Virus record (IMG/VR): IMGVR_UViG_3300017757_000163
Coordinates: 1-23,789 of that record
Length of the DNA stretch: 23,789 nt
Direction: 5' to 3' (one strand)
Source of the DNA: a virus
Positions 403 to 12,783 of the stretch are shown in pieces. The translations under genes and the position numbers were made by a program. The notes under the pieces are model-generated. The model made no database searches. It was not told the DNA's origin and saw nothing but the letters and a program-made list of their open reading frames with translations. Position 1 is the stretch's first letter. Every line of letters starts with the position of its first letter.

Positions 403-523
403 CCAAATCATCCTTCTCTTTTAACTGGGCTTGTCTGTAGCCCTTAGTTCTTGCTTTACTTTTAGATTTCTTTTTCTTCTGAAACCTCTCAGCTCTTTCT
501 GCTTTCCTATCCCAACTTGTCAC
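356..523 (-). CDS. Small lysine-rich basic protein (55 aa)
   Basis: A short frame between the DUF3310 gene and ribonucleotide reductase. It starts with GTG at 523, preceded by GGAG with 7 bases spacing, and overlaps the end of the DUF3310 gene by 17 bases. The product is strongly basic in its first two thirds (a run of lysines near residues 16-24) and acidic at the end (KDDLDD). It has no membrane segment. The function is unknown; the charge pattern would suit nucleic-acid binding, which is only inference. Without it there would be a gap of about 100 bases in an otherwise gapless operon, which supports it being real. The 47-base overlap with the RNR start is a mild argument against. Confidence 0.5.
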   Translation of the reverse strand: MTSWDRKAERAERFQKKKKSKSKARTKGYRQAQLKEKDDLDDIKDWQAELSGDRN

Positions 524-881
524 CCGGATGCTCCAACATGTAACGAATCAAACGCTCTTCATACCAACGGGCCTTACGTAAGTCTTCTATAGGCTTACCT
601 TTGTAACGACAACGCCAGTTATATTTCAGTGCATTACCACGCAAGTATCCAATGTACTCATCGTGTGTAAGCATACCTTGGATAGCATCAATACATTCCA
701 TACCGCCATTGTTGTAATGCTCTGGCCTATGTACAGGATCAAACTTATAATCTCCATATAGGGGATGATCATTAGGATCATTGTTATCATCATAGATATG
801 ATTCCATGTGTCGGCTACAGGTGTTGCGGTTTTTTTCCTAAGTGCATTCCACTCTTCTGGTGTTGCGTCATCAATGCTCAT
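507..881 (-). CDS. DUF3310 family protein
   Basis: A 124-residue protein whose C-terminal two thirds carry the DUF3310 signature found in many phages: HRPEHYN-GG-ECIDAI at residues 51-67, then GYLRGNALKY at 78-87 and the ED-KARWYEERLI helix at 99-112. The biochemical role of this family is not established, although it is sometimes annotated as a nucleotide kinase without proof. The first 45 residues are acidic and asparagine-rich and look unstructured. The ATG at 881 has GGAG five bases upstream and overlaps the endonuclease I stop by four bases (ATGA type), so the two genes are probably translationally coupled. It sits between recombination and nucleotide-metabolism genes, which fits a part in DNA metabolism but does not show it. 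Confidence 0.85.
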   Translation of the reverse strand: MSIDDATPEEWNALRKKTATPVADTWNHIYDDNNDPNDHPLYGDYKFDPVHRPEHYNNGGMECIDAIQGMLTHDEYIGYLRGNALKYNWRCRYKGKPIEDLRKARWYEERLIRYMLEHPGDKLG

Positions 882-1390
882 TGCATCTCCACAGTTAGTT
901 TATCATTTCGTTTTTTAAACTCTTCAGAGTCTTTAGCTTTAACATCAATCCAACTATCTGGGATTGTGTCTTCACTAAACCACCTAAAGTCATTAGCCCA
1001 AGCCCACTCACCGTGTGATCTTTTAGTGCCGTCTTTACGGCGCTTAGCTCCCGGCATAGGGGCATCGGGATTTGCAAACAAGAATACCAACTCAGTATCT
1101 TTGGGTAATTTTTTTCTTACCCAAATATATTTATTATATTCTTGGAAGTCCCAGAACCTACCTTTAGATTCTAAAAGGATTTTTTTACCTTCAATATGGC
1201 GAACAAAGTCTGGCTCATACTTGTGCTCAATTACATAAGGTACTTTATCTACATGGTGCTTCCAATCTTTTAAGATTGATTCGTGAAGAAGCGCCTCCCA
1301 TATAGAATCATACTTATTACCGTCAGGCTTTATAAGTTTTTTAGGGCGCGGTACTCGTCTTTTCCTAGCGCCTGATTTAATTTTTGCCAT
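878..1390 (-). CDS. Endonuclease I, T7 gp3-like Holliday junction resolvase
   Basis: A 170-residue member of the T7 endonuclease I family (T7 gp3 is 149 residues). Such enzymes cut branched DNA, resolve junctions before packaging and help break down host DNA. The PD-(D/E)XK catalytic set is visible: a glutamate in the first helix (E32 in SIWEALLHE, or E37), D61 in YEPDF, and E74 and K76 in LLESKGRF. The stretch after it, FWDFQEYNKYIWVRK, also fits the family. The N-terminal 20 residues are very basic, and there is a C-terminal extension of about 30 residues beyond the T7 length. The start at 1390 has GGAAG about seven bases upstream. It overlaps the preceding gene by 14 bases and the next by four, within the recombination part of the operon. 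Confidence 0.93.
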   Translation of the reverse strand: MAKIKSGARKRRVPRPKKLIKPDGNKYDSIWEALLHESILKDWKHHVDKVPYVIEHKYEPDFVRHIEGKKILLESKGRFWDFQEYNKYIWVRKKLPKDTELVFLFANPDAPMPGAKRRKDGTKRSHGEWAWANDFRWFSEDTIPDSWIDVKAKDSEEFKKRNDKLTVEMQ

Positions 1391-1673
1391 AGATATACTT
1401 CCTATAGCTGTTATTAAACATTGTATAATCTATATTGTTTAAAGTGTGCCCATCTTTTATCATTTTTTTGAGCACGGACACAACCCAAGATCGGGTGTAT
1501 ATACTTTTATATAATGTTTTATTGTTGTAGATATACTCTTGTTGGGACAAGAAATCTTCTACGTTGGCAGGCGTAATTTTATTTTGGTCTTCTTCGGGGA
1601 CTAAAGTGTGCATCCAAGCAGCTAGAATATCTAGACTTTTTTTACGGATCAACTTCATAGTTTTACTGTTCAA
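1377..1673 (-). CDS. Hypothetical protein, 98 aa
   Basis: I do not recognise this protein. It is small, predicted largely helical, and basic at the start (KLIRKK) and near the end. It has no membrane segment and no cysteines. The first codon is TTG at 1673, behind AGGAAG with about seven bases spacing; the later in-frame ATG at 1658 has no comparable site. It overlaps both the exonuclease before it (11 bases) and endonuclease I after it (14 bases), so it is part of a coupled nuclease block. Its position suggests an accessory role in recombination or DNA degradation, but nothing in the sequence shows this. Confidence 0.72.
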   Translation of the reverse strand: MNSKTMKLIRKKSLDILAAWMHTLVPEEDQNKITPANVEDFLSQQEYIYNNKTLYKSIYTRSWVVSVLKKMIKDGHTLNNIDYTMFNNSYRKYIYGKN

Positions 1674-2532
1674 CTATAACTTCCTTAACTCTAGGGGCGT
1701 TAACAACTTTGGTGAAGTACGTCAGACCTTTAGAGTATTCAAATACCCTAAGCCCCTCACCATCATTACTGTCTGCCCAGCAATTAAATTTATGGGGACA
1801 AAACACGCAGGAGCGTGGTAGCTTTTCGTTACCTTTTACTCCTTCGGGTATAGGATTATAGCATTTTTCTGGAGGGGAGTCAAGCTTTATAGCCTTCTTT
1901 AAGTTTTTTATTTTACTTTTAATAGAAGGCTTATCCATATCATCAGGGCGGAACAGACACAACTCTCCGTTTTCTTTGTTGATCACAAGAAAGCCGCCTG
2001 ATTCTGTCCCTTCATGGGCCTCGTATCCCGCTAACTGCGCCATGTATCCGAAGTCATCTTGTTCTGCTAAAGTTCCTTGTGCAAACTTTTTGAATGCAAA
2101 ACCAGAAGCAGTCTTTACATCAACTACTTCACCATCAATTTTACAGTCCATGTGGCCTGTAATCCCCTCCACTACAACTTCTTTTTGCTCATCAGTTACT
2201 GTGTGCCCAGCCAAACGCACAAGCATAAGAAGTAATTCCTCTAGAATATGTCCGTAAAGAAATTTAATTTGCGTGGAAGCTGAATGTTTTTGTGCATGAT
2301 TACTACTATTAATATCATACCAAAGCTGCCTTGAAGGTTTCCCCACGTTACTCATACGCAGCCCCTTTGTTTGTGTCCTAGGCGTAGCCCAGTGTACCAA
2401 AGCGGACTTCATATTCTCACCAAAGTTATATATTATATCATCAGTAAGATCAATATCTTTACCTTCAGACAGTACATCAAGGGTAGAGTATATGTCCTCT
2501 ACTAAAGTGTCTAGAGTTTTAGAAGAGTTCAA
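1663..2532 (-). CDS. PD-(D/E)XK exonuclease, Cas4/RecB-like, phage type
   Basis: A cytoplasmic exonuclease of the kind that replaces T7 gp6 in many marine podophages, expected to degrade host DNA and process phage DNA ends. The catalytic core is visible: GHILEELLL, then GHMDCKIDGEVVDVK, giving D129, D138 and K140 counted from the start chosen here. Near the C-terminus lie four cysteines (224, 242, 245, 251) with spacing C-x17-C-x2-C-x5-C, likely binding an iron-sulfur cluster or zinc, as in Cas4/AddB relatives. The open frame extends to 2571, but ATG codons at 2568 and 2547 lack good ribosome sites. TTG at 2532 has GGAGG five bases upstream and overlaps the previous stop by only 14 bases, so I prefer it (289 residues). 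Confidence 0.85.
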   Translation of the reverse strand: MNSSKTLDTLVEDIYSTLDVLSEGKDIDLTDDIIYNFGENMKSALVHWATPRTQTKGLRMSNVGKPSRQLWYDINSSNHAQKHSASTQIKFLYGHILEELLLMLVRLAGHTVTDEQKEVVVEGITGHMDCKIDGEVVDVKTASGFAFKKFAQGTLAEQDDFGYMAQLAGYEAHEGTESGGFLVINKENGELCLFRPDDMDKPSIKSKIKNLKKAIKLDSPPEKCYNPIPEGVKGNEKLPRSCVFCPHKFNCWADSNDGEGLRVFEYSKGLTYFTKVVNAPRVKEVIVEQ

Positions 2533-3088
2533 GCTGCCCTCCCTCATAAAATAACTTATCAAGTTCATCAACAGCTACGGCAGATCCCATATAAAACCAT
2601 TCTCCTTTACGTCCACGGCCCTCTAGGGTAAGCGCATTGTGTGCCTTACTCTCAGCCTCTCGTCTATCAGAAACTTTATAAGATTTTACAATTTCATAGT
2701 CTCTATAAGGTGATGATGTTTGATATTGTTTTAATCTATCTTTAGAATCTACAGCCATACCTACCTTAACCCAGCCCGGAAACGAAGGGTTATACATAAT
2801 ATATACTTCTCCTTCTTTAGATCTTTCATAGTTTTCTAAAGAACTAAAAGCAGCATCAGTAAAACCTTTGTATCTTCCGGGCTTGTGTAAAGGATGAGCT
2901 TGTGATATATAATTACCATCTACCCACATTCTATTAGAGTTTCTTTTTTCTTTAACAGAAGTTCTTTCTCGGATGTGTCCCCCAGTATGGATACTGGAGC
3001 CATCTTCGGGGTAGTAATACCACCAATCCCCATCCTCAAAAACATGCTTACCTGTTCTAGTGTGTTTCTGACCAGTTGCTTCCGACAT
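2519..3088 (-). CDS. T5orf172 / GIY-YIG-like nuclease domain protein
   Basis: A 189-residue protein with a C-terminal domain (about residues 93-172) matching the T5orf172/Mug113 group related to GIY-YIG nucleases. Visible motifs are VYIMYNP, PGWVKVGMA, RLKQYQTSSP, DRREAESKAH and GEWFY. The N-terminal half is rich in aromatic and charged residues (DWWYYYPEDG) and may bind DNA. Family members include phage and mobile-element proteins that cut or bind DNA; activity here is unproven. The frame opens at 3100, but ATG 3088 has GGAG six bases upstream and is the better start. It lies between polymerase and exonuclease and overlaps them by 32 and 14 bases. It may be a captured homing-type gene that became domesticated. 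Confidence 0.8.
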   Translation of the reverse strand: MSEATGQKHTRTGKHVFEDGDWWYYYPEDGSSIHTGGHIRERTSVKEKRNSNRMWVDGNYISQAHPLHKPGRYKGFTDAAFSSLENYERSKEGEVYIMYNPSFPGWVKVGMAVDSKDRLKQYQTSSPYRDYEIVKSYKVSDRREAESKAHNALTLEGRGRKGEWFYMGSAVAVDELDKLFYEGGQLELF

Positions 3089-4805
3089 GATAATCTCCAT
3101 CTAGCGGACAGTTAAGTCCTAATTGTACACCGGCTTCTATTATAGCACCGATACCTAAGTTTCCCACAGTGTCAGCTATAGTTTCTTCTGCTTCGACCTG
3201 CCATTCATCGTGGACATTGGCGACAACAGAAGCATCTAAATCTTTTATTTTGTCTGAAAAAATAATTAAAGCTTTCTTCATAACAATAGCACCGGCACTT
3301 TGCAACAATGTATTCAAAGCTGAATGCTCACTGCGAACAATAAGCTTGCGACCATCAATACCTTTTATGTATCCTTTCTTGGATGCTCTTCCAACTTTAT
3401 CTTTAAGAGATTTGAATGATGGAAGATTATCGAAGAAAGATTTTCTAAGTCTTGCACCAACGTCCCTACCTCCTCCAGCCACGCTTCCAAGTTTAGGATC
3501 TCCTGCTCCGTATAAGAGGGCATATATAAATGTCTTTGCCTGATTTCTAGATTCAAGTCCTGCAAGCTTTTGGTTAGCTGTGTGGACATCTCCGTTAATG
3601 ATTTCATTTGTGTACTCCTGATCGTCCATATAATGTGCAAGCATTCGCAACTCAAGACCACTAGCATCAATACCAACAAGCTTGTAGCCTTCGGGGACAG
3701 TCCAACAAGCCCGACATTCCTTACCGTACTCAGAAGATAAGCTAGGAACTTGGGCCATGTTGGGACTGTTGTGTGTCATCCGTCCTGTAATAGTACCGTT
3801 AGAATTTATATATCCCCTTACTCTTGAGTCATCGTCACACTCTTTTAACCACGAAGTTATAGAAGCTAAACGCTTTTGTAACATTAAGTATCTTGAGATC
3901 AATTGTGCTTGAGGTATATTTTTTATTTTATTTAGTACACTTTCATTAACGATAGGTTGTCCTGTTGGTGTAAACTTTTTTGGTTTCCAACCAAACTCTT
4001 GTAAGTACTCACCTATTTGTTTTCTTGATCCAAGATTGAAAGGATGAGACATAACTCTTTTAAGTTTTTTATTACCACATATTTCGACATACTCGTCATC
4101 GGATAGTCTTACTCTTTTATTTAACTCTCGGCACTTAGCAAACTTAGATACGGCTCCATCTGCATTGTAAGCGATACGAAGAGTGAACACTTCTTTTTTA
4201 GGCTTGAATACTTTATGTACTTCACGCTTAACATCTTCAAGCTCTTCTTCAAACTTAGCTTCTAAAGTCATGGCATATTTTCTATCAAGAAGTATACCTT
4301 TATTCCTTTGATCATCTATTAATTTGTAAGCTTCGTGTTCTATTTCTACCGACAAAGCAGAGAAACCTTTGCTTTCTCTTTTAAGATATTCGTAAACCTT
4401 AGCGTTCACCATCACGTCATTGATACAATACTTCATCATCTCAGGTGAGTACTCATCAAATTCTACATGTTCTGTTTTCCTATGACCAATCCTAAAGCCC
4501 CAAGACTTTAAGCTATGGCTACCCTCGCGGGTAGGATTAAGAAGACGAGAAAGAATTAATGTATCTCTAAGAATACAATTTTCTGACAGGTCTACACCAT
4601 AAAGTTTTTGTATTGCAGGGACATCGAAACCTATAATGTTATGTCCAATAAGTTTGTCGGCAGTAGACAAAAAAGCTACACCCTCTTCTAGATGATCAGG
4701 ATCAAAGGTGTGTACCTTTTGAGTATCTACATCATAAGCAACAATACACCATGCTTTTGTATAATCTAGACCATCTGTTTCAATATCAAATACTAAATTT
4801 AAAAT
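3057..4805 (-). CDS. Family A DNA polymerase with 3'-5' exonuclease, T7 gp5-like
   Basis: The replicative polymerase, 582 residues if started at the ATT codon at 4805-4803. Exonuclease motif I (FDIETDG, residues 6-12), motif II (GHNIIGFD) and motif III (YCINDV) are present. In the polymerase domain, motif A is GIDASGLELR (D380), motif B is RNQAKTFIYALLYG (R420, K424, Y428) and motif C is VHDE (H532-D533-E534). Tyrosine stands at the position equivalent to E. coli Pol I F762, as in T7 polymerase. There is no ATG, GTG or TTG in frame before 4670, and starting there would delete exonuclease motif I. The ATT overlaps the helicase TAA stop and has GAGG ten bases upstream. The length then fits phage relatives (about 580-590 residues). 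Confidence 0.93.
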   Translation of the reverse strand: MLNLVFDIETDGLDYTKAWCIVAYDVDTQKVHTFDPDHLEEGVAFLSTADKLIGHNIIGFDVPAIQKLYGVDLSENCILRDTLILSRLLNPTREGSHSLKSWGFRIGHRKTEHVEFDEYSPEMMKYCINDVMVNAKVYEYLKRESKGFSALSVEIEHEAYKLIDDQRNKGILLDRKYAMTLEAKFEEELEDVKREVHKVFKPKKEVFTLRIAYNADGAVSKFAKCRELNKRVRLSDDEYVEICGNKKLKRVMSHPFNLGSRKQIGEYLQEFGWKPKKFTPTGQPIVNESVLNKIKNIPQAQLISRYLMLQKRLASITSWLKECDDDSRVRGYINSNGTITGRMTHNSPNMAQVPSLSSEYGKECRACWTVPEGYKLVGIDASGLELRMLAHYMDDQEYTNEIINGDVHTANQKLAGLESRNQAKTFIYALLYGAGDPKLGSVAGGGRDVGARLRKSFFDNLPSFKSLKDKVGRASKKGYIKGIDGRKLIVRSEHSALNTLLQSAGAIVMKKALIIFSDKIKDLDASVVANVHDEWQVEAEETIADTVGNLGIGAIIEAGVQLGLNCPLDGDYHVGSNWSETH

Positions 4806-6469
4806 GGTATGTTATCCTCTTCATTAAAGAACTCGTCGGGCTGCTCATCAAATAATTCTTTGAGCCTTCCTGTGTCATTATCATACAACAAGTGTGTCGC
4901 CATACCTACATCTCCAGTGTATCTAGATTTAAGAACACGAAGGTGTGTGGTGTTTGCCTCTTGTGGATCGTCGCTTTGTTGATTGCGCTCCAAAGCAATC
5001 ACACAGTCACTAAGCTGTGCTATAGATTGGCTGCCTCTAAGGTGCGACAAGCCTACTGTAACACCCTGCTCATGCCCCTTGTTCCCCTCTACACGTCGGA
5101 GGTGGGATACAAGAATCATGCCTGCCCCTGTCTCTTCTACTAGAGATCTTAGTCGAGTCATAATGCTATCAATAGCCCTACGCTCATCGCCGTCAGCCAT
5201 AGAAGATACGAGCATGTGCAAGTGGTCTACTACAATCCATTTACAATCACAACCTATAGTCAAGTAGCGCAGCTTAGAAAATATTTCTTCGATGTCGTGC
5301 TGGCCTAAGTGAGAGTAAATCCACAACCTATCTTTAGCTTCACCTTTGAATAAGGCAGCATGGTGCTTACGCCAATCTTCTTCAGGGAACTCTTCACGTA
5401 TTTGATTGATGTAAAGTTTAGCATTGGCTTCGATAGAGACAATACCATCCACGGTACGATTTTTGTTTTCTTCCAACGCTAGAATACCTACACGATCTTT
5501 AGTATTCTTAATAAGAAAGTGTTCAATTTCTCTAGTGATAGAAGACTTACCAAGTCCCGTGCCTCCGGTCAAAGTAACCAGTTCGCCCTGTCTCATACCG
5601 TAAAGCTTTTCATTGAGGCCATCCCAAGGATAAGGTACAGACTCTTGTTTTTCCCTAGAGAAATAACTGTCATCCATATCAGAGACATTGATAATACCCG
5701 AAGGTGTATACAACCTAGCTGCCCACCAAGATGTCACATAAGCCTGCCTACTGTTCTGCCGAAGCATATCATTAGGATCTTTGAACTCTTCTGGTAGCGT
5801 AAGTATTTTACTTTTGCCGGGGCGGAGTATACGCGCTACTTTTTTAGCAGCCTCGCGTCCTACTTTGTCGTTATCAAAATTAATAACTACGCAGTCAAAA
5901 GATTCTAAAAACTCTAAGTTTTCTTTGACATCTTTGACCGCACCTCCCGCGCCATTCTTTACAGATACCACAGGCCATTTAGAACCAAGCAATTCATAGG
6001 CCGCCATCGCATCGCACTCTCCTTCAACAAGGGTAACGAACTTACCGCCAGCCTGAAAGATTTGCTGCCCGAACAAGCCCGTGTTTTTAGGAGATCCTTC
6101 CCAAGCAAAGTCTTTGTTCTGCACGTTGCGTATTTTAGCACCGCCCATTTCATTGCCATTGTAGTAGGGGTAGAAATGATTAATTACTTTTTGATTTGAA
6201 TCAAGTATAGATTTTACACCGTACTTTTTTACAGTTTCCAAAGAGATTGAACGGTCAGCCAGTGCGTTGAAAGAACCATCACTATAGTTCATTGCATTAC
6301 GTTTATAAGTTTTAAAGTCTGACACAGGGGCAGTGATAGTATCACCTCCTTCATAGTTTTTTAGATATGTATTACAACTAAAACAGTAGCCGTTACCATC
6401 AGCATCCACAGATACAGGGTCACTGCCACCACATTTATTACAAGGCAAATGAAATTTAACAAACGCCAA
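4799..6469 (-). CDS. Primase-helicase, T7 gp4-like
   Basis: A 556-residue bifunctional protein that unwinds DNA at the fork and lays down primers. In order: a zinc-binding primase domain with C10, C13, C29 and C32 (the same spacing as T7 gp4); a TOPRIM domain with VEGECD near 148-153 and NFDNDKVG near 197-204; a linker; then a RecA-like ring helicase with Walker A GGTGLGKSS (302-310), Walker B WIVVDH (411-416) and RVLKSRYTG near 511-519. The C-terminus is acidic and ends in phenylalanine (EEDNIPF), like the T7 gp4 tail that contacts the polymerase. It starts with TTG at 6469 behind GGAGG at seven bases. A terminator hairpin lies just upstream. Its stop codon overlaps the proposed polymerase start. 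Confidence 0.95.
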   Translation of the reverse strand: MAFVKFHLPCNKCGGSDPVSVDADGNGYCFSCNTYLKNYEGGDTITAPVSDFKTYKRNAMNYSDGSFNALADRSISLETVKKYGVKSILDSNQKVINHFYPYYNGNEMGGAKIRNVQNKDFAWEGSPKNTGLFGQQIFQAGGKFVTLVEGECDAMAAYELLGSKWPVVSVKNGAGGAVKDVKENLEFLESFDCVVINFDNDKVGREAAKKVARILRPGKSKILTLPEEFKDPNDMLRQNSRQAYVTSWWAARLYTPSGIINVSDMDDSYFSREKQESVPYPWDGLNEKLYGMRQGELVTLTGGTGLGKSSITREIEHFLIKNTKDRVGILALEENKNRTVDGIVSIEANAKLYINQIREEFPEEDWRKHHAALFKGEAKDRLWIYSHLGQHDIEEIFSKLRYLTIGCDCKWIVVDHLHMLVSSMADGDERRAIDSIMTRLRSLVEETGAGMILVSHLRRVEGNKGHEQGVTVGLSHLRGSQSIAQLSDCVIALERNQQSDDPQEANTTHLRVLKSRYTGDVGMATHLLYDNDTGRLKELFDEQPDEFFNEEDNIPF

Positions 6470-6480
6470 AGTATAACCTC

Positions 6481-6504
6481 CAAAAATAAAGGGGCCGAAG
6501 CCCC
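6481..6504 (-). terminator. Rho-independent terminator or attenuator before the helicase
   Basis: On the minus strand the sequence is GGGGC, a TTCG loop, GCCCC, then TTTATTTTT. This is a five-base GC stem with the very stable UUCG tetraloop and a U-rich tail. It lies between the small coiled protein stop (6511) and the ribosome site of the helicase. Helicase and polymerase have no other visible promoter nearby, so it probably lets only part of the strong SSB transcript through. Confidence 0.8.
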
Positions 6505-6510
6505 TATTTA

Positions 6511-6741
6511 TTAGTCGATACCGTCAAGACTTTCTTGTTCAGGAGCAGTGAGTAACTCCTCCAATTCCTTGGAGAAAGTTATCTCTGCTGCCTGTAACAC
6601 GGCAAGTCTTTTTTGCAGAGCGGCACCCTCGTCACGAACTTCTCGGACAAAGCCTACAAGTACTTGTCCCCTCTCAGGGAGGTCAGCAACATTGTATTCT
6701 TTATCCTCAAAGGTCAAAGTGTTTGTGGCTTCTTCACTCAA
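6511..6741 (-). CDS. Small coiled-coil phage protein (DUF6447-like)
   Basis: A 76-residue acidic protein. It begins with a short beta-type stretch (LTFEDKEYNVADLPERG) and continues with a long amphipathic helix of about 45 residues (VGFVREV through LEELL) that looks like a coiled coil. This layout resembles the small DUF6447 family common in phages, though I am not certain of the match. Its function is unknown. The TTG start at 6741 has AGGAGG seven bases upstream and overlaps the SSB stop by four bases, so translation is coupled to SSB. It is followed by a terminator, so it is the last gene at full expression from the promoter at 7196-7224. Confidence 0.78.
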   Translation of the reverse strand: MSEEATNTLTFEDKEYNVADLPERGQVLVGFVREVRDEGAALQKRLAVLQAAEITFSKELEELLTAPEQESLDGID

Positions 6742-7163
6742 AGCTCTGCCTCCTCTTCACCTTCAATGTCGAACTCATCGACATCGCCGTTATTGTATTC
6801 AACAAGATTTAAGACTTGCATTTTCATAAAGTCAAGACCTTTGAAAGTCTTTCCATTCCATTGCGATTCCCATTCTTTATATTGCACTTTGACATGCGAT
6901 CCGTTACCGACGTTGACATCAATTTCTTGTTTGAGTCTATCCATAAGAACAGGTGCTCTACGAACCATACCATTTGGCCCATTGACTTTACGTTTAATAA
7001 TGATGGCGGGGCCTTCATTCATTTGCTTGACAGTGAAACCACGGTCTTCAAATGCTTGCGCCGTCTCATTATCTACAACTAAGTTGACCGTGTAGCACGG
7101 ATCATAAGTTGTGTTAGGGGTAGTAACAAAAGCCCAATATGCTGTGCCTTCTAGTACTGCCAT
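6738..7163 (-). CDS. Single-stranded DNA-binding protein, phage type
   Basis: A 141-residue protein resembling the SSB-like proteins of marine podophages that occupy the place of T7 gp2.5. The N-terminal MAVLEGTAYWAF, the IIIKRKV-GPNG stretch near residues 54-65, and the GNGSHVKVQYKEWE segment near 86-99 fit an OB-fold beta barrel. The C-terminal 15 residues are acidic (DEFDIEGEEEAEL), as expected for an SSB tail that recruits replication partners, but the tail ends in leucine rather than the phenylalanine of T7 gp2.5. It has its own consensus promoter just upstream and a GAGAGG ribosome site seven bases before the ATG, which suits a protein needed in large amounts. Confidence 0.8.
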   Translation of the reverse strand: MAVLEGTAYWAFVTTPNTTYDPCYTVNLVVDNETAQAFEDRGFTVKQMNEGPAIIIKRKVNGPNGMVRRAPVLMDRLKQEIDVNVGNGSHVKVQYKEWESQWNGKTFKGLDFMKMQVLNLVEYNNGDVDEFDIEGEEEAEL

Positions 7164-7195: not shown

Positions 7196-7224
7196 ATTAT
7201 ACATTGAGTAAGGAATCATGTCAA
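7196..7224 (-). promoter_or_regulatory. Consensus sigma70 promoter for SSB
   Basis: On the minus strand TTGACA (7224-7219) and TATAAT (7201-7196) are separated by exactly 17 bases, a perfect match to the sigma70 consensus. The start of transcription should fall near 7189, about 25 bases before the SSB ATG. The -35 box overlaps the stop codon of the preceding gene. Confidence 0.9.
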
Positions 7225-8911: not shown

Positions 8912-9868
8912 TTAGGCTGCCATTGGGAACTTTGCTATTACTTGTTGTACCTTTTCAGATTTCTTGACTTGAGCCACTGGAATGTCTCTTGTATTCTTTC
9001 GAGTACCTACATGATGGCTTGACCAATCAGTCAAAGCATTGTAGACAGCCCAGTAAGTTCCACCCATTGTTGGCTTGTATCTTCCATTGTATTGGTGCCA
9101 AGCATAAACCAAAGAAGAATTATTATAGGCCGTCGGCATAGCCATGATTGAATAAGTATCCTCACCTTCTTTTAATTTACCAAGTGCAAACTTAGAACCT
9201 GTCGCCTCTGCAATATAACTAAAGGCTTCTTTGCGACCAACAGGAGTATTAGACCACTCAGCCCAGATCTCATTTTGAGTATCGAGGATACTCATTATCT
9301 TATTCATTTGGTGAGCGCCTTGATCCACACTGAGCTTGTTGGTATGTCGAGCTTTGTAGATTCCAGCGGTCTGCCCAAGGAATACTTGATGGTTTGTGCA
9401 AGCATTTTGCAATGCTCCAACAGTCGCTTGGTAGGGCCATACAGAATTGAATGAATTGATGTGGAGCATCTCAAGAATAGCCGTGTCGCCATCGGGAGTT
9501 GTGATCTCATGGTTAGGCAACTGATGCCGCACAAAACAAACTGCACCATCATCTCCCACTTGAATAGTTTCTTTAATGTTCCGAAGGCTCAAGTTGCTGC
9601 GCTCCAATACATTACGAGCAGTGTCAATCATTTTAGTATGTGACACTGGCTTGTAGCGGTCGCCGTGGATAGCCAGAGCATCGCCGGTATCTTCGCGGTA
9701 GTAAACATGCTTACCCTCAAGTTTAAGTATACCACCAAATTTATCTGTGCCGCTTGCCTTATATAATACTGGCGTAGAGACAACTTCAAAGTCTGCTTCG
9801 CCGTATCCAGCATTTCGCAGATTATCAACTTCTGAATTGTTTCCAAACAAAAAACTAACTGTGTTCAT
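8912..9868 (-). CDS. DUF932 family protein
   Basis: A 318-residue protein of the DUF932 (phage/plasmid-like, TIGR03299-type) family, which is widespread on phages and plasmids and has no proven function. Recognisable family features are VVSTPVLYKASG near residues 29-40, DALAIHGDRYKPVSH near 62-76, the central FNSVWPYQATVGALQNACTNH stretch with its conserved CTN, and the C-terminal TYWAVYNALTDWSSH segment. Its ATG at 9868 has AGGAG five bases upstream. It has its own promoter (10029-10057), a hairpin at the 5' end of the mRNA and a leader of about 150 bases, so it is the first gene of its transcript and probably strongly expressed. Confidence 0.85.
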   Translation of the reverse strand: MNTVSFLFGNNSEVDNLRNAGYGEADFEVVSTPVLYKASGTDKFGGILKLEGKHVYYREDTGDALAIHGDRYKPVSHTKMIDTARNVLERSNLSLRNIKETIQVGDDGAVCFVRHQLPNHEITTPDGDTAILEMLHINSFNSVWPYQATVGALQNACTNHQVFLGQTAGIYKARHTNKLSVDQGAHQMNKIMSILDTQNEIWAEWSNTPVGRKEAFSYIAEATGSKFALGKLKEGEDTYSIMAMPTAYNNSSLVYAWHQYNGRYKPTMGGTYWAVYNALTDWSSHHVGTRKNTRDIPVAQVKKSEKVQQVIAKFPMAA

Positions 9869-9975
9869 ACGAACTCCTGATTATAAAATTATGAGTTGCC
9901 AGCTGCTCATTGCCACTCTTTAAAGGCTCCACAAGGGAGGTGGCGGGTCAGGCTTCACGGTGCCTCCAACCGTAC

Positions 9976-10025
9976 CCCTAGAAAAACTAGGAAGGTCGTA
10001 AGACCTCCTTCCTAGTTTTCTAGGG
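9976..10025. repeat. Bulged hairpin with GTCGTAAGAC apex, copy 1
   Basis: An inverted repeat with a 22-base left arm (9976-9997), a GTAA loop and a 24-base right arm (10002-10025). The right arm carries an extra TCC triplet near the apex, and the left arm has one extra A. The leftward transcript from the promoter at 10029-10057 would begin at its edge, placing the hairpin at the mRNA 5' end. It shares apex and bulge with the hairpins at 11061-11113 and 12050-12120. Confidence 0.85.
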
Positions 10026-10028
10026 AGA

Positions 10029-10057
10029 ATCTTAAAGTATTTTAACTGCGATGTCAA
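10029..10057 (-). promoter_or_regulatory. Sigma70-type promoter for DUF932
   Basis: On the minus strand TTGACA (10057-10052), a 17-base spacer and TAAGAT (10034-10029). The -35 box is perfect and the -10 box matches four of six. The expected start near 10022 is at the edge of the hairpin. The -35 box overlaps the stop codon of the GP88-like gene, in the same nine-base context (GCTTGACAT) as the SSB promoter. Confidence 0.75.
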
Positions 10058-10863
10058 GCGACCAACTGTAAATTATTAGGGTCTGCAAAGAAATTCAGAT
10101 CGCCTTGCCCCTTGAGTCTTTCTAGTTTTGTAGATCCTTTGCGTGTTAATTTACCGACGGTGCCCTCCTCATCTAAAAATCTCAAGTCGGTGGCATCAAA
10201 GTCTGCTAACTCTACAGTATTACCAAACAACTGTATATTATTAGGTATCTTGAACTCGCCTTTGCACTCTTTAGTATTAAAGGATATTGCAATGTTGAGT
10301 CCAAGATCTGTAGCAGTTTTAAGTTGCCCAATAGTCTTGACACTATTTAATGATGCCGAAAATGTGAGATGATAGTTAGACAAAACATTACGAGTAACGC
10401 GGTGTAGAACCTTTGTGTAATCATAAAATTGTATGTTAGGCAACGATGCGATAAGATCAGTCCATACCACATCACTAGTACCGTTCAGTCTGATACAATA
10501 ATTGTCAGTCTCATTGCGTAGTATCTCGGCCCGTAATCTTTCTTTGAAACCATCAGGATCTTCAAGATATTGCACAGTTCTACGAGTCATAGCCCTCTGA
10601 GCATTAGACATTCCAAGTCGGCCCGAAGATCTAAGACAGGGTTCTTTACACCCAGCAACATCAGCATAAGCACATAAAGTATTACGCGCCACAAGATCAG
10701 CGGGTTGCAAATACAATATACCTGTGGTATAATCTTGCTTTTTAAAGCCTTTTAAGATCTTAGTAGAACTATTAAACCCCATTAAGGGTAAATTATAATT
10801 ATATATATACTCCTTAATAGGTTTAATAGTCTTCAAAGTTATTGCGTTTATTCTATTCACCAA
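10054..10863 (-). CDS. GP88-family phage protein
   Basis: A 269-residue protein resembling the gene product 88 family of phages, whose function is unknown. Visible features are a cysteine group (C64, C72, C76 in LCAYADVAGCKEPCLRSSGR), the RRTVQYLEDPDGF stretch, RLNGTSD at 125-131, FYDYTKV at 146-152 and HLTFS at 165-169. The cysteines suggest metal binding, which is inference. TTG at 10863 has GGGAG seven bases upstream; GTG at 10860 is an alternative. It overlaps the small gene before it by 11 bases. Its TGA stop is embedded in the promoter for the next transcript. Confidence 0.75.
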   Translation of the reverse strand: MVNRINAITLKTIKPIKEYIYNYNLPLMGFNSSTKILKGFKKQDYTTGILYLQPADLVARNTLCAYADVAGCKEPCLRSSGRLGMSNAQRAMTRRTVQYLEDPDGFKERLRAEILRNETDNYCIRLNGTSDVVWTDLIASLPNIQFYDYTKVLHRVTRNVLSNYHLTFSASLNSVKTIGQLKTATDLGLNIAISFNTKECKGEFKIPNNIQLFGNTVELADFDATDLRFLDEEGTVGKLTRKGSTKLERLKGQGDLNFFADPNNLQLVA

Positions 10864-11047
10864 AGGCTTTCTCCCATTCTTTAGGTGTTATTCCTGACAC
10901 TATAAACTCACGTTGATCATCAGTCAAATCTGGCATTGCATCTTGAATTAACATACCACCCTGCCAGTTATTAAACTGTTCATAAGTGATAGGCATATCA
11001 ATAATGCGACGAACACCAGTTAACATAGATTGTTTTTCGATCAGCAC
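10853..11047 (-). CDS. Conserved small phage protein, 64 aa
   Basis: A 64-residue protein of a type I recognise from many phages: an SMLTGV motif near the start, then a helix with YEQFNNWQGGMLIQDAMP, then LTDDQREFIVSGITPKEWE. The family has no function known to me. It starts at GTG 11047, five bases behind a perfect AGGAGG; the overlapping ATG at 11049 is out of frame and hits a stop at once. The gene lies 13 bases downstream (leftward) of the large hairpin at 11061-11113, so the hairpin borders its ribosome site. Confidence 0.8.
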   Translation of the reverse strand: MLIEKQSMLTGVRRIIDMPITYEQFNNWQGGMLIQDAMPDLTDDQREFIVSGITPKEWEKAFGE

Positions 11048-11060
11048 ATTATCCTCCTGT

Positions 11061-11113
11061 TCCCTTTTTAATCTTTAGAGGTCGTAAGACCTCCTCTAAA
11101 GATTAAAAAGGGA
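11061..11113. repeat. Bulged hairpin with GTCGTAAGAC apex, copy 2
   Basis: An inverted repeat with a 23-base left arm (11061-11083), a GTAA loop and a 26-base right arm (11088-11113) that differs only by an inserted TCC triplet next to the apex. The stem sequence differs from copies 1 and 3, but the apex and bulge are kept. The base of the stem overlaps the terminator at 11105-11125, so on the leftward RNA the two compete for the same UCCC and U-run. Confidence 0.88.
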
Positions 11114-11125
11114 GCCGAAGCTCCC
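11105..11125 (-). terminator. Rho-independent terminator with UUCG loop
   Basis: On the minus strand GGGAGC, TTCG, GCTCCC and then five Ts: a six-base stem with a stable tetraloop and a U-tail. It ends or attenuates transcription coming from the 11221-12001 genes before the 11047 gene. Confidence 0.82.
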
Positions 11126-11220
11126 ATTATTTAATTAGTGCAGCCGCAAGAATCCGGATTGGCTACCATCTCAGGAAGCTGCACCATAACCATACTAATG
11201 GTTATAATTTTAGTTTGTAA

Positions 11221-11490
11221 CTAAGCGGAATCCTCCGGGGTAATTCTTTGAACTAACATCACGATCATTTGCGCGACATCCCATTTATCAATCTGCCAAA
11301 CTTTAGTTTTATTAAACTTGGCAGCCACCACATCTTCAAATCTCGCTAACACCGCAGTATGGAGTTCAGGATTCATTTGAAGACTACCAAGTTCAGAAGT
11401 TAACATATCAACTGCATGTTCAAACTTCATCAATTGCATAAGTTCAAAAGATACATCACGGCGCTCATCGACAACAACAGAATTAGTCAT
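11221..11490 (-). CDS. Hypothetical helical protein, 89 aa
   Basis: An unrecognised 89-residue protein, predicted mainly helical (FELMQLMKFEHAVDMLTSELG, then TAVLARFEDVVAAKF), with a hydrophobic stretch near the end (VAQMIVMLVQ) that is too short and amphipathic to be a clear membrane helix. The open frame reaches 11565, but the ATG at 11490 has AGGAG five bases upstream and follows directly after the stop of the 29-residue membrane peptide gene, so I take it as the start. Its function is unknown. Confidence 0.72.
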   Translation of the reverse strand: MTNSVVVDERRDVSFELMQLMKFEHAVDMLTSELGSLQMNPELHTAVLARFEDVVAAKFNKTKVWQIDKWDVAQMIVMLVQRITPEDSA

Positions 11491-11498
11491 ATTGACTC

Positions 11499-11588
11499 CT
11501 AAGAAAAAATTACAATAATGAATGGGGTCAGCGGAGCTGCTAATAGTGCAACCACTGGTATCCAAATATCTAAATTATATTTATCCAT
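11499..11588 (-). CDS. Very small membrane peptide, 29 aa
   Basis: A 29-residue frame from the ATG at 11588 to TAG at 11499. GGAG lies five bases before the ATG, and the stop codon overlaps the ribosome site of the next gene. After a short polar start (MDKYNLD) the rest is one hydrophobic stretch (IWIPVVALLAAP, then FIIVIFS) long enough for a single membrane helix with a proline kink. Such tiny early membrane proteins in phages can affect the host envelope or exclude other phages; here this is only inference. Spacing on both sides argues strongly that it is translated. Confidence 0.65.
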   Translation of the reverse strand: MDKYNLDIWIPVVALLAAPLTPFIIVIFS

Positions 11589-11597
11589 AAAAACTCC

Positions 11598-11617
11598 AAA
11601 AGCCCCCCGAAGGGGGC
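11598..11617 (-). terminator. Rho-independent terminator with UUCG loop
   Basis: On the minus strand GCCCCC, TTCG, GGGGGC and then TTTT. It directly follows the stop of the 124-residue gene and should limit readthrough into the small membrane peptide gene, whose ribosome site begins just after the T-run. Confidence 0.82.
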
Positions 11618-11626
11618 CAAGTTAAA

Positions 11627-12001
11627 TTAGATCATTCCGAGATCAGCGGCAGTCGCAAGACGAGGAGCCGAAGAGGTTTTAAAGTTCTTTGACTGCTTTG
11701 GATTTGCAGTGATTTTAACTTCTTTGTTGGATTTCAAGTCATCAGTTCGGAGAACTTTGATATACTTCGACGCAGCGGAAGTCTTACCGTTGATTTTTTT
11801 CACCGAAAACAATTTGTTGATATCCCCAGCCAAAGGCTGTCCTTCGTGAACCGACTTGATCGAAGCCCCAAAGCGGGCTTTGAGTTTATTAAACTCAAAC
11901 TTCTTGAGGTCATTCTCACCGATGAATTTATATGCCAAAGTCGCAGCACAGGCATAGATCGCTTTGTCGGTCGCAGGTTTTGTCAAATCATACTTAGCCA
12001 T
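11627..12001 (-). CDS. Basic hypothetical protein, first gene of the leftward arm
   Basis: An unrecognised 124-residue protein, rich in lysine and alanine and basic overall. The N-terminal half looks helical (DKAIYACAATLAYKFIG, then LKKFEFNKLKARFGASI); the C-terminal half is basic and low in complexity (TANPKQSKNFKTSSAPR), suggesting a disordered nucleic-acid-binding tail. It is the first gene after the strong leftward promoter at 12712-12740, so it should be made very early and in quantity; a host-takeover or DNA-binding role is inference. Its own terminator follows. The ATG has only a weak GGGA upstream, held in the loop of a small hairpin (12002-12017, AATCG/CGATT) that touches the start codon. 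Confidence 0.78.
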   Translation of the reverse strand: MAKYDLTKPATDKAIYACAATLAYKFIGENDLKKFEFNKLKARFGASIKSVHEGQPLAGDINKLFSVKKINGKTSAASKYIKVLRTDDLKSNKEVKITANPKQSKNFKTSSAPRLATAADLGMI

Positions 12002-12049
12002 AATCGTTTTCCCGATTGTGTAATTTTTCGTCGAGCCGAAGCCCTTCCT

Positions 12050-12120
12050 AGGTTTGACTATCTTTAAAATCTTCAGAAGTCGTAAGACTTCTTCTGAAGA
12101 TTTTAAAGATAGTCAAACCT
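12050..12120. repeat. Bulged hairpin with GTCGTAAGAC apex, copy 3
   Basis: The largest inverted repeat: a 32-base left arm (12050-12081), a GTAA loop and a 35-base right arm (12086-12120). The arms match perfectly except for one extra triplet beside the apex in the right arm, the same place as in the copies at 9976 and 11061. It lies 48 bases upstream of the start of the 11627-12001 gene. Confidence 0.9.
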
Positions 12121-12122
12121 TA

Positions 12123-12498
12123 TCCACCTAGTCCTATTAAGCCTAAGAAGGCTTAATAGGACTAGGTGGAAATGTAAAAGACCCCTTGGGTCTTTTAAAC
12201 TTTGGAGTCTGTTAGCTCCTCTTAGGAGGAGCTAGATGGACTTGGCAGCTTGGGAGTTAAATAGCTTTCAAGTTCTTGAAAGCTATAAAGAACTTTGAAG
12301 TTTAGAATAAACTTCAAAGACTAAAAAGACTTCAGTTTACTTTGTAAACTAGAAGTCTTTAAAATTCTCTGGAGGGTTCAGCCTCTAAAGTCTTCTTAGA
12401 CTTTAGAGTCTGGGAGGGATCTGCTTTAAAGTCTCTAGAGACTTTAAAGTATGCGCGGAAGAATAATGGAGTTTTCCAAGTTCTTTAGAGAACTTGGA
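12123..12498. repeat. Tandem array of nine inverted repeats
   Basis: Nine palindromes stand one after another: 12123-12170 (22-base perfect arms, AAGA loop), 12175-12197 (10-base arms), 12213-12234 (9, TTAG loop), 12261-12286 (12), 12293-12319 (12, GAA loop), 12325-12360 (16, one bulge), 12383-12408 (11), 12424-12449 (perfect 26-base palindrome) and 12475-12498 (10, TTAG loop). Stem sequences differ from one to the next, though words such as AAAGTCT and CTTTGAAG recur. With 12050-12120, more than half of the bases here are in stems. No reading frame explains them. Confidence 0.88.
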
Positions 12499-12557
12499 GG
12501 GGCCGGGCAGGAGGCCATACCCCCTACCCCCTATATATACTAAATCATATACATTTT

Positions 12558-12659
12558 GAACTGAAAGTGATGTTAACCAGTTTGGAAGGGTCTTCAAAGT
12601 CTCCACAACCCCCATATGAGCCAAAAGTAGTGTGTACCAGTTTGGGCGGGTCTTCAAAG
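12558..12659. repeat. Two-copy direct repeat, 60-base period
   Basis: Copies at 12558-12599 and 12618-12659 share most of 42 bases, including ACCAGTTTGG, two variable bases and GGGTCTTCAAAG. The second copy is followed by a further CTTCAAAG, and its end forms a small palindrome (12649-12662). Such repeats upstream of a promoter often bind a regulator or a replication protein. Confidence 0.85.
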
Positions 12660-12711
12660 ACCTTCAAAGAAGGGAGATATATATAGATATAGCCCCGGTG
12701 GGTCTATAAAT

Positions 12712-12740
12712 ATTATAGAGTTAATTTAGAGATTTGTCAA
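12712..12740 (-). promoter_or_regulatory. Consensus leftward promoter of the early arm
   Basis: On the minus strand TTGACA (12740-12735), a 17-base spacer and TATAAT (12717-12712), a perfect sigma70 consensus. Transcription should start near 12705 and run through the repeats and hairpins to the gene at 12001, giving a leader of about 700 bases. Confidence 0.9.
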
Positions 12741-12759
12741 GAAAAAACTTGACAAATCT
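12730..12759. repeat. Palindrome joining the two divergent -35 boxes
   Basis: Twelve-base perfect arms (12730-12741 and 12748-12759) around six As. Each arm contains a TTGACA -35 box, one facing each way, so one dyad element serves both promoters. Confidence 0.9.
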
Positions 12760-12777
12760 GTAAACTACCTCTATAAT
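12749..12777 (+). promoter_or_regulatory. Consensus rightward promoter of the structural arm
   Basis: TTGACA (12749-12754), a 17-base spacer and TATAAT (12772-12777), a perfect sigma70 consensus. The usual six-base discriminator puts the first transcribed base at 12784, the A of the small terminase ATG. Confidence 0.9.
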
Positions 12778-12783
12778 AAAACA

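Follow-up and report, generated by a model that had tools for sequence, protein, structure and literature searches.

Recurrent hairpins with a conserved loop in the leader and intergenic regions of leftward mRNAs of an HMO-2011-type marine phage

The phage and its leftward genes

The sequence analysed here (hereafter the window) corresponds to positions 1 to 23,789, i.e., 23,789 nt, of the uncultured-virus record IMGVR_UViG_3300017757_000163. Its portal protein shares 62% amino acid identity with that of Pelagibacter phage HTVC115P and 52% with that of HMO-2011 and, judging from the kinship of portal and terminase together with the gene order typical of the group, the window is an HMO-2011-type podovirus. 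Phages of this type are a widespread and dominant marine group, as reported in a survey devoted to them (PMC9038755). The terminase heads the rightward gene set, while a GP88 protein is encoded among the leftward genes, alongside a DUF932 protein; other genes of the window match, by order only, the HTVC115P annotations for ssDNA-binding protein, primase, polymerase and reductase. The features of the leftward region considered below are the following:

8912..9868, minus strand: DUF932 gene, downstream of hairpin H1
9869..9975, minus strand: structured 5' UTR linking H1 to the DUF932 gene, three of its helices showing compensatory changes
9976..10025, minus strand (sense, leftward mRNA): hairpin H1, inner arms 9983-9995/10007-10019 perfect, 11-nt loop AGGUCUUACGA
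10029..10057, minus strand (read 10057..10029): sigma-70-type promoter TTGACA-17-TAAGAT, predicted from sequence and kept in relatives
10853..11047, minus strand: 64-aa gene, starting 13 bases past H2
11061..11113, minus strand: hairpin H2, 21-bp perfect stem, 11-nt loop AGGUCUUACGA
11105..11125, minus strand: intrinsic-terminator-like GGGAGC-UUCG-GCUCCC-UUUUU, recognised from sequence
11627..12001, minus strand: first leftward gene (124 aa), starting 48 bases past H3
12050..12120, minus strand: hairpin H3, 30-bp perfect stem, 11-nt loop AAGUCUUACGA
12123..12170, minus strand: companion unbulged hairpin (22-bp stem), immediately preceding H3 on the leftward RNA
12171..12711, minus strand: hairpin-rich leader of the leftward transcript, with a similarly placed leader in relatives
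12711..12778, both strands: palindrome with two back-to-back consensus promoters (TTGACA-17-TATAAT; plus strand at 12749, minus strand at 12740)

Three hairpins sharing one apical loop

A preliminary description of this DNA had placed hairpins at 9976-10025, 11061-11113 and 12050-12120, and the sequence confirmed these coordinates as well as the distances of 107, 13 and 48 bases that separate them from the next leftward start codon. The apex they were said to have in common, GTCGTAAGAC, indeed occurs three times in the window, on the plus strand only and each time at the apex of a hairpin. With a 3- or 4-nt right-hand bulge as search criterion, exactly three hairpins were retrieved in the window and none in any of 60 dinucleotide-preserving shuffles of it, and the folding z-scores on the leftward strand were -6.1, -7.5 and -12.9 (-6 to -13 on either strand). 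The three hairpins are real.

A second description of the same structures was obtained by a repeat search, in which 11 nt separate the perfect arms in H1, H2 and H3 alike, the loop of H1 being closed by 13 perfect base pairs plus further pairs beyond. Read on the leftward (sense) strand, the consensus of this apical loop is ARGUCUUACGA. As for the extra triplet previously noticed in the right arm, it is present in all three hairpins, but the bulge it was taken to form is one of two alternative pairings and is not strictly required. The triplet repeats, or nearly repeats, the adjacent one (CCTCCT, CTCCTC, TTCTTC), hence the position of the bulge can slide; likewise, the first bases of the loop duplicate the end of the 5' arm, exactly or nearly, so that the 3' arm is able to pair with either copy. 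With RNA parameters the open-loop form is favoured over the bulged one by 1.1-1.5 kcal/mol in H1-H3. An apex plus bulge and an open 11-nt loop are thus both valid descriptions of the window hairpins, and for the family described below an open loop of 11-14 nt fits equally well as the bulge does, the exact repeat at the loop start being absent in 12 of its 49 members.

Related hairpins in other phages

Relatives were gathered by terminase, first-gene and pattern searches. The expectation that further copies should exist in related phages was borne out by 49 distinct hairpins from 86 loci, a number that includes overlapping loci and loci of the same contig. Stems range from 13 to 31 bp (median 25) and loops from 11 to 14 nt, mainly of the form A-R-G-U-(U)-C-U-U-A-C-G-A; a second loop type, AAGUUCAGAAUGAA, is found ahead of the first gene in a sister clade (clade B). 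The combination of changing stems with a fixed apex, originally noticed among the three window copies, therefore extends to the relatives, where the apex or loop persists and pairing is preserved, the letters of the stem being completely changed.

In the records carrying the exact apex all copies lie on one strand and, in particular, each of four contigs 35-50 kb long contains exactly three of them, with the opposite strand empty. In six near-complete or long contigs the family hairpins number two or three each, and every one of them precedes a leftward gene. No family hairpin was found in ten other near-complete relatives, including L131, L138 and L140, which branch close to the window's clade in the terminase tree (the tree labels precede the verification of absence in short contigs and of presence in all clade-B contigs, and gain or loss counts are not drawn from it). 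In the sequence examined, the cultured phages HTVC115P, HTVC103P, HTVC104P, HTVC033P, CRP-1, CRP-3 and HMO-2011, and also the record ctYwJ313, have no clear member.

No Rfam 15 family scored above its gathering threshold, and the matches obtained at E-value thresholds were chance look-alikes only. The 17-mer AGGTCGTAAGACCTCCT gave 38 matches in cellular genome contigs, none of them with a long bulged stem; by their flanks, most of them appear to be group II intron 3' ends (Methanophagales), repeats from a single Saprospiraceae MAG or short, simple terminators. Viral matches of 14-mer palindromes were mostly due to chance. A word search of the HMO-2011-type survey (PMC9038755) retrieved nothing on hairpins, promoters, terminators or intergenic elements. 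As far as searched, the hairpins represent a conserved phage leader element that has not been described.

Position of the hairpins on the leftward transcripts

H1 starts at the fourth nucleotide after the -10 box of the TTGACA-17-TAAGAT promoter, whose -35 box shares bases with the stop codon of the GP88 gene. The same promoter, with the same 17-nt spacing and the same offset to H1, is present in the relatives L139, L143 and L030, the offset being shared by L139 and L143 despite their different stems. H1 is accordingly predicted to begin no more than about 3 nt from the RNA 5' end, if not exactly there. The promoter is also present at the H1 site of L131, L138 and L140, followed by a short leader devoid of hairpin. 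In the UTR that separates H1 from the DUF932 gene, two-sided changes affect 6 of 20 pairs.

At H2, the U tract and the last stem bases of the terminator-like structure double as the start of the 5' arm of the hairpin, an overlap that recurs in L030 and L156. The Shine-Dalgarno sequence AGGAGG lies outside the hairpin proper, and the 64-aa gene that follows is missing or replaced in some relatives in which H2 is kept. H3 is preceded by its companion hairpin, and a similar one is found ahead of H3 in relatives. Since the palindrome at 12711-12778 bears perfect promoters on both strands, leftward transcription is expected to begin near 12705 and, as far as the promoter sequences indicate, to run through a hairpin-rich leader of about 600 nt before H3 and the first gene. 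Overall, the assignment of the hairpins to the 5' leaders of leftward mRNAs, or to the gaps between their genes, is well supported.

Being stable, intergenic and, in one case, adjacent to a terminator-like site, the hairpins could be regarded as ordinary rho-independent terminators. This is highly improbable, given that none of the three stems is followed by a U tract on the leftward strand and that H1 lies at the start of a transcript rather than at its end.

The same positions are more readily reconciled with a role in 5'-end protection, whereby the hairpins would act as roadblocks against RppH/RNase E or against a 5'-3' exonuclease (RNase J), allowing the downstream message to persist. Both stabilisation by 5' structures and 5' roadblocks are well documented in E. 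coli and B. subtilis (PMC3997798), H1 is flush with the predicted transcription start in the window, L139, L143 and L030, and both H2 and H3 lie directly behind another strong structure (the terminator and the companion hairpin, respectively). A plain hairpin would nonetheless suffice for protection, which leaves the conserved loop and the repeat at its start without an explanation. We consider this reading not very probable, yet it is the main rival to the processing model discussed below, with which it could also coexist.

Three copies at three leftward transcription units, with terminator-like hairpins beside H2 and upstream of H3, would also suit a regulator site, in which a protein or the RNA polymerase binds the loop, the sole part conserved in sequence, while the stem serves as a holder (antitermination of the nut or put kind, or translational control). 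On the contrary, 20-30 perfect pairs are not needed to hold a loop, H2 is placed after its terminator and not before it, and no phage protein family tracks the presence of the hairpins when six genomes with and ten without them are compared at the BLAST level. The first leftward gene was considered as the cognate factor and discarded, its family occurring also in phages without hairpins; nor was a phage antisense partner of the loop found in the window, where GTCGTAAGAC is confined to the hairpins. Such a regulator site appears unlikely.

Evolution of the stems

Covariation was evaluated on an alignment of 13 sequences comprising 17 pairs and 188 cells. All of the 188 cells pair, 14 of the 17 pairs show two-sided changes, and 45 cells are changed on both sides with none changed on one side only. 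Shuffles were paired at 72% on average with 11.5 two-sided cells, and slid structures performed far worse. Among the 49 distinct hairpins, 18 of 1167 pairs are mismatched, and the wobbles on the sense strand amount to two G-U and no A-C, too few for a strand test. In the neighbouring structured UTR, G-U pairs reach about 6% (12/200 cells); the comparison with the hairpins (earlier count, 2/1324) gives a Fisher p of about 1e-9, which is indicative only because the sequences are related and not independent. Selection acting at the RNA level only would not usually leave G-U pairs so scarce.

In closely related genomes the two partners of a pair change together. With L127, at 2.7% background divergence from the window, one double change separates the stems and no single change was seen; with L221, at about 13%, five double changes and no single one were counted, all of them in H3, the inner stems of H1 and H2 being identical. 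Concerted changes of this kind can result either from selection for a perfect duplex or from template-switch correction of a palindrome.

The latter route of mutation is established for quasipalindromes (e.g., PMC7202029) and, together with the almost purely Watson-Crick pairing and the partner changes seen against L127, it gives some ground to an explanation at the DNA level, namely a cruciform or single-strand hairpin acting in replication, recombination or as a hairpin promoter, or a palindrome simply kept by template switching. The placement of the hairpins, however, tracks features of the leftward RNA (transcription start, terminator, start codon), and the asymmetric loop is retained, although template switching would tend to erase asymmetry. 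Moreover, no T7-type RNA polymerase domain (PF00940) was detected in three hairpin-bearing contigs by a search that finds the enzyme of T7, a very divergent enzyme being able to escape it. A DNA-level function is, in our opinion, quite unlikely.

A sister clade with the ribosome-binding site inside the hairpin

In ten H3 hairpins of clade B a GGAG or AAGGA of Shine-Dalgarno type occupies part of the final 16 nt of the 3' arm, with the AUG 2-4 nt beyond the stem. In the three examples that were folded (about -34 to -36 kcal/mol) the Shine-Dalgarno is fully paired; the gene is therefore expected to be silent unless the hairpin is opened. A stem of this stability would hold the Shine-Dalgarno closed also if its role were 5'-end protection, which speaks against that reading in clade B. 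A role in processing is plausible, and the ribosome-binding site inside the hairpin in the sister clade adds to its support.

Proposed function

Most probably, the hairpins govern the cutting, protection or translation of the mRNAs of the three early genes they precede. More specifically, we tentatively favour, at somewhat less than an even chance, the view that H1-H3 are post-transcriptional leader elements that hide or define the 5' ends of the mRNAs and are opened by an RNase III-type cleavage. The three hairpins would be copies of one cis-acting RNA element placed on leftward (early/replication) mRNAs, consisting of a long perfect stem of free sequence capped by a conserved, self-pairing loop of 11-14 nt. 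A duplex of about 20-35 bp could be a substrate of the host double-strand-specific RNase III, whose cut would remove the occluding 5' arm and set the 5' end of the downstream mRNA; translation or stability of the three mRNAs would then depend on processing, according to the logic of adhE and lambda cIII. For the conserved loop, probable roles are the nucleation of folding, the positioning of the cut or recognition by a host factor. No RNase III domain was found in these phages by a search that detected it in eight control genomes; without a detectable RNase III or T7-type RNA polymerase of their own, the actors would be those of the host.

An RNase III-type opening is preferred on account of the length of the duplex, of the clade-B anatomy and of the known opening of the adhE and lambda cIII leaders, in which an occluded ribosome-binding site is established to be opened by RNase III, an enzyme with sites also known in lambda, T7 and T3 (PMC5371410). 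Several observations argue against it, namely the scarcity of G-U pairs, the conserved loop, the unlike form of the T7 sites, the close relatives that do without the element and, in the window, the Shine-Dalgarno near H2, which is outside the hairpin. With regard to the loop, no requirement of bacterial RNase III for a conserved one is known.

Alternatively, the element might be a folding switch, or a mark for a host factor, licensing few early mRNAs and representing a new class of phage RNA. In the folding-switch version, two 5' segments would compete for one 3' segment, as the start of the loop repeats the end of the 5' arm. We regard this alternative as rather unlikely.

Whether opened by RNase III, as we favour, or read otherwise, an element located at the 5' ends of few early mRNAs and absent in close neighbours may offer a handle on the timing of early expression with host enzymes only, while the strictness of its Watson-Crick pairing, together with its concerted changes, recommends it for testing how long palindromes are kept up in phage genomes.

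Comparison with known systems

The put sites of HK022 and the nut sites of lambda are likewise RNA hairpins lying close to where early phage transcripts begin. Unlike these, the hairpins described here come with no boxA/boxB or double stem-loop that could be found, one copy follows its terminator, and no candidate protein emerged. The promoters of the N4 virion RNA polymerase are few oriented hairpins of the early region with a conserved apex and stems of 5-7 bp; the window phage resembles N4 in having few oriented early-region hairpins with a conserved apex, but differs in the long stems, in the presence of ordinary sigma-70 promoters and in that no single-subunit RNA polymerase domain was found.

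The preliminary description had likened the hairpins to the RNase III sites of T7. The likeness holds in that both sets of hairpins are intergenic and lie on the early operon's sense strand; the form is different and the fit loose. By the same criterion, no perfect hairpin of at least 11 bp was found in T7 500-7000 (early region), whereas the stems described here, compared with the T7 and T3 sites, are perfect over 13-31 bp, carry a conserved loop and lie in another context of promoters and terminators.

A long leader hairpin near the start codon is likewise present in E. coli adhE, lambda cIII and lambda N. The placement of the Shine-Dalgarno in the 3' arm, as in the adhE/lambda cIII type, is matched by the ten clade-B H3 hairpins and not by the ribosome-binding sites of the window's clade. 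Differently from adhE and lambda cIII, the hairpins form a repeated, loop-conserved family with three copies in a single genome, and cleavage is here a prediction. In its logic the element is therefore closest to the RNase III-controlled leaders, without matching the T7 sites in form.

Gene exchange downstream of hairpin H2

In three related loci (L127, L080 and L116) the 64-aa gene that follows leader hairpin H2 in the window is absent and the GP88 gene directly follows the hairpin, while in other relatives this position is occupied by different genes, thus indicating that genes have been swapped and H2 retained.

Other elements of the leftward leaders

The following elements were recorded in the window:
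9869-9975, minus strand: structured 5' UTR (about 107 nt) ahead of the DUF932 gene
11127-11210, minus strand: conserved stretch preceding the H2 terminator, the intrinsic-terminator-like site at the start of H2
12123-12450, in the leftward leader: array of additional hairpins (12123-12170, 12170-12202, 12261-12286, 12293-12319, 12379-12412 and 12424-12449)
12711-12778, both strands: palindrome of two back-to-back consensus sigma-70 promoters (TTGACA-17-TATAAT on each strand)

Helices of the DUF932 5' UTR covary (e.g., GCCAC/GTGGC, GTCAC/GTGAC, GCTAC/GTAGC and GTCGC/GCGAC) and no Rfam match to window 9869-9975 was found; this UTR could represent a separate regulatory RNA. Another structured RNA is possible at 11127-11210, where inverted repeats (GTGCAGC...GCTGCAC and CCATTAGTATGG) enclose a middle that occurs in two versions across relatives.

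The leader array is composed of AAAGACTTTAAAG-like words, replaced by repeated ACTCCAGAATACT-like words in the corresponding region of relatives of the L131 type (L131 being a close relative without family hairpins). The palindromic TTGTCAAG/CTTGACAA cores of the promoter pair were found again in relatives. A further perfect TTGACA-17-TATAAT promoter lies at 7224, leftward, within the replication gene group.

Hairpins of doubtful status

AT-rich hairpins with a one-sided 3-nt bulge, detected in unrelated-looking viral contigs (L229, 2030-2290; L266, 1901-1945), may be chance products of AT-rich sequence. Upstream of its GP88 gene, the cultured phage HMO-2011 (GU557055.1; L516, 4-42) carries a hairpin in which 13 bp enclose a 13-nt loop (GATACTTTAGTGA); this hairpin is not clearly assignable to the family.
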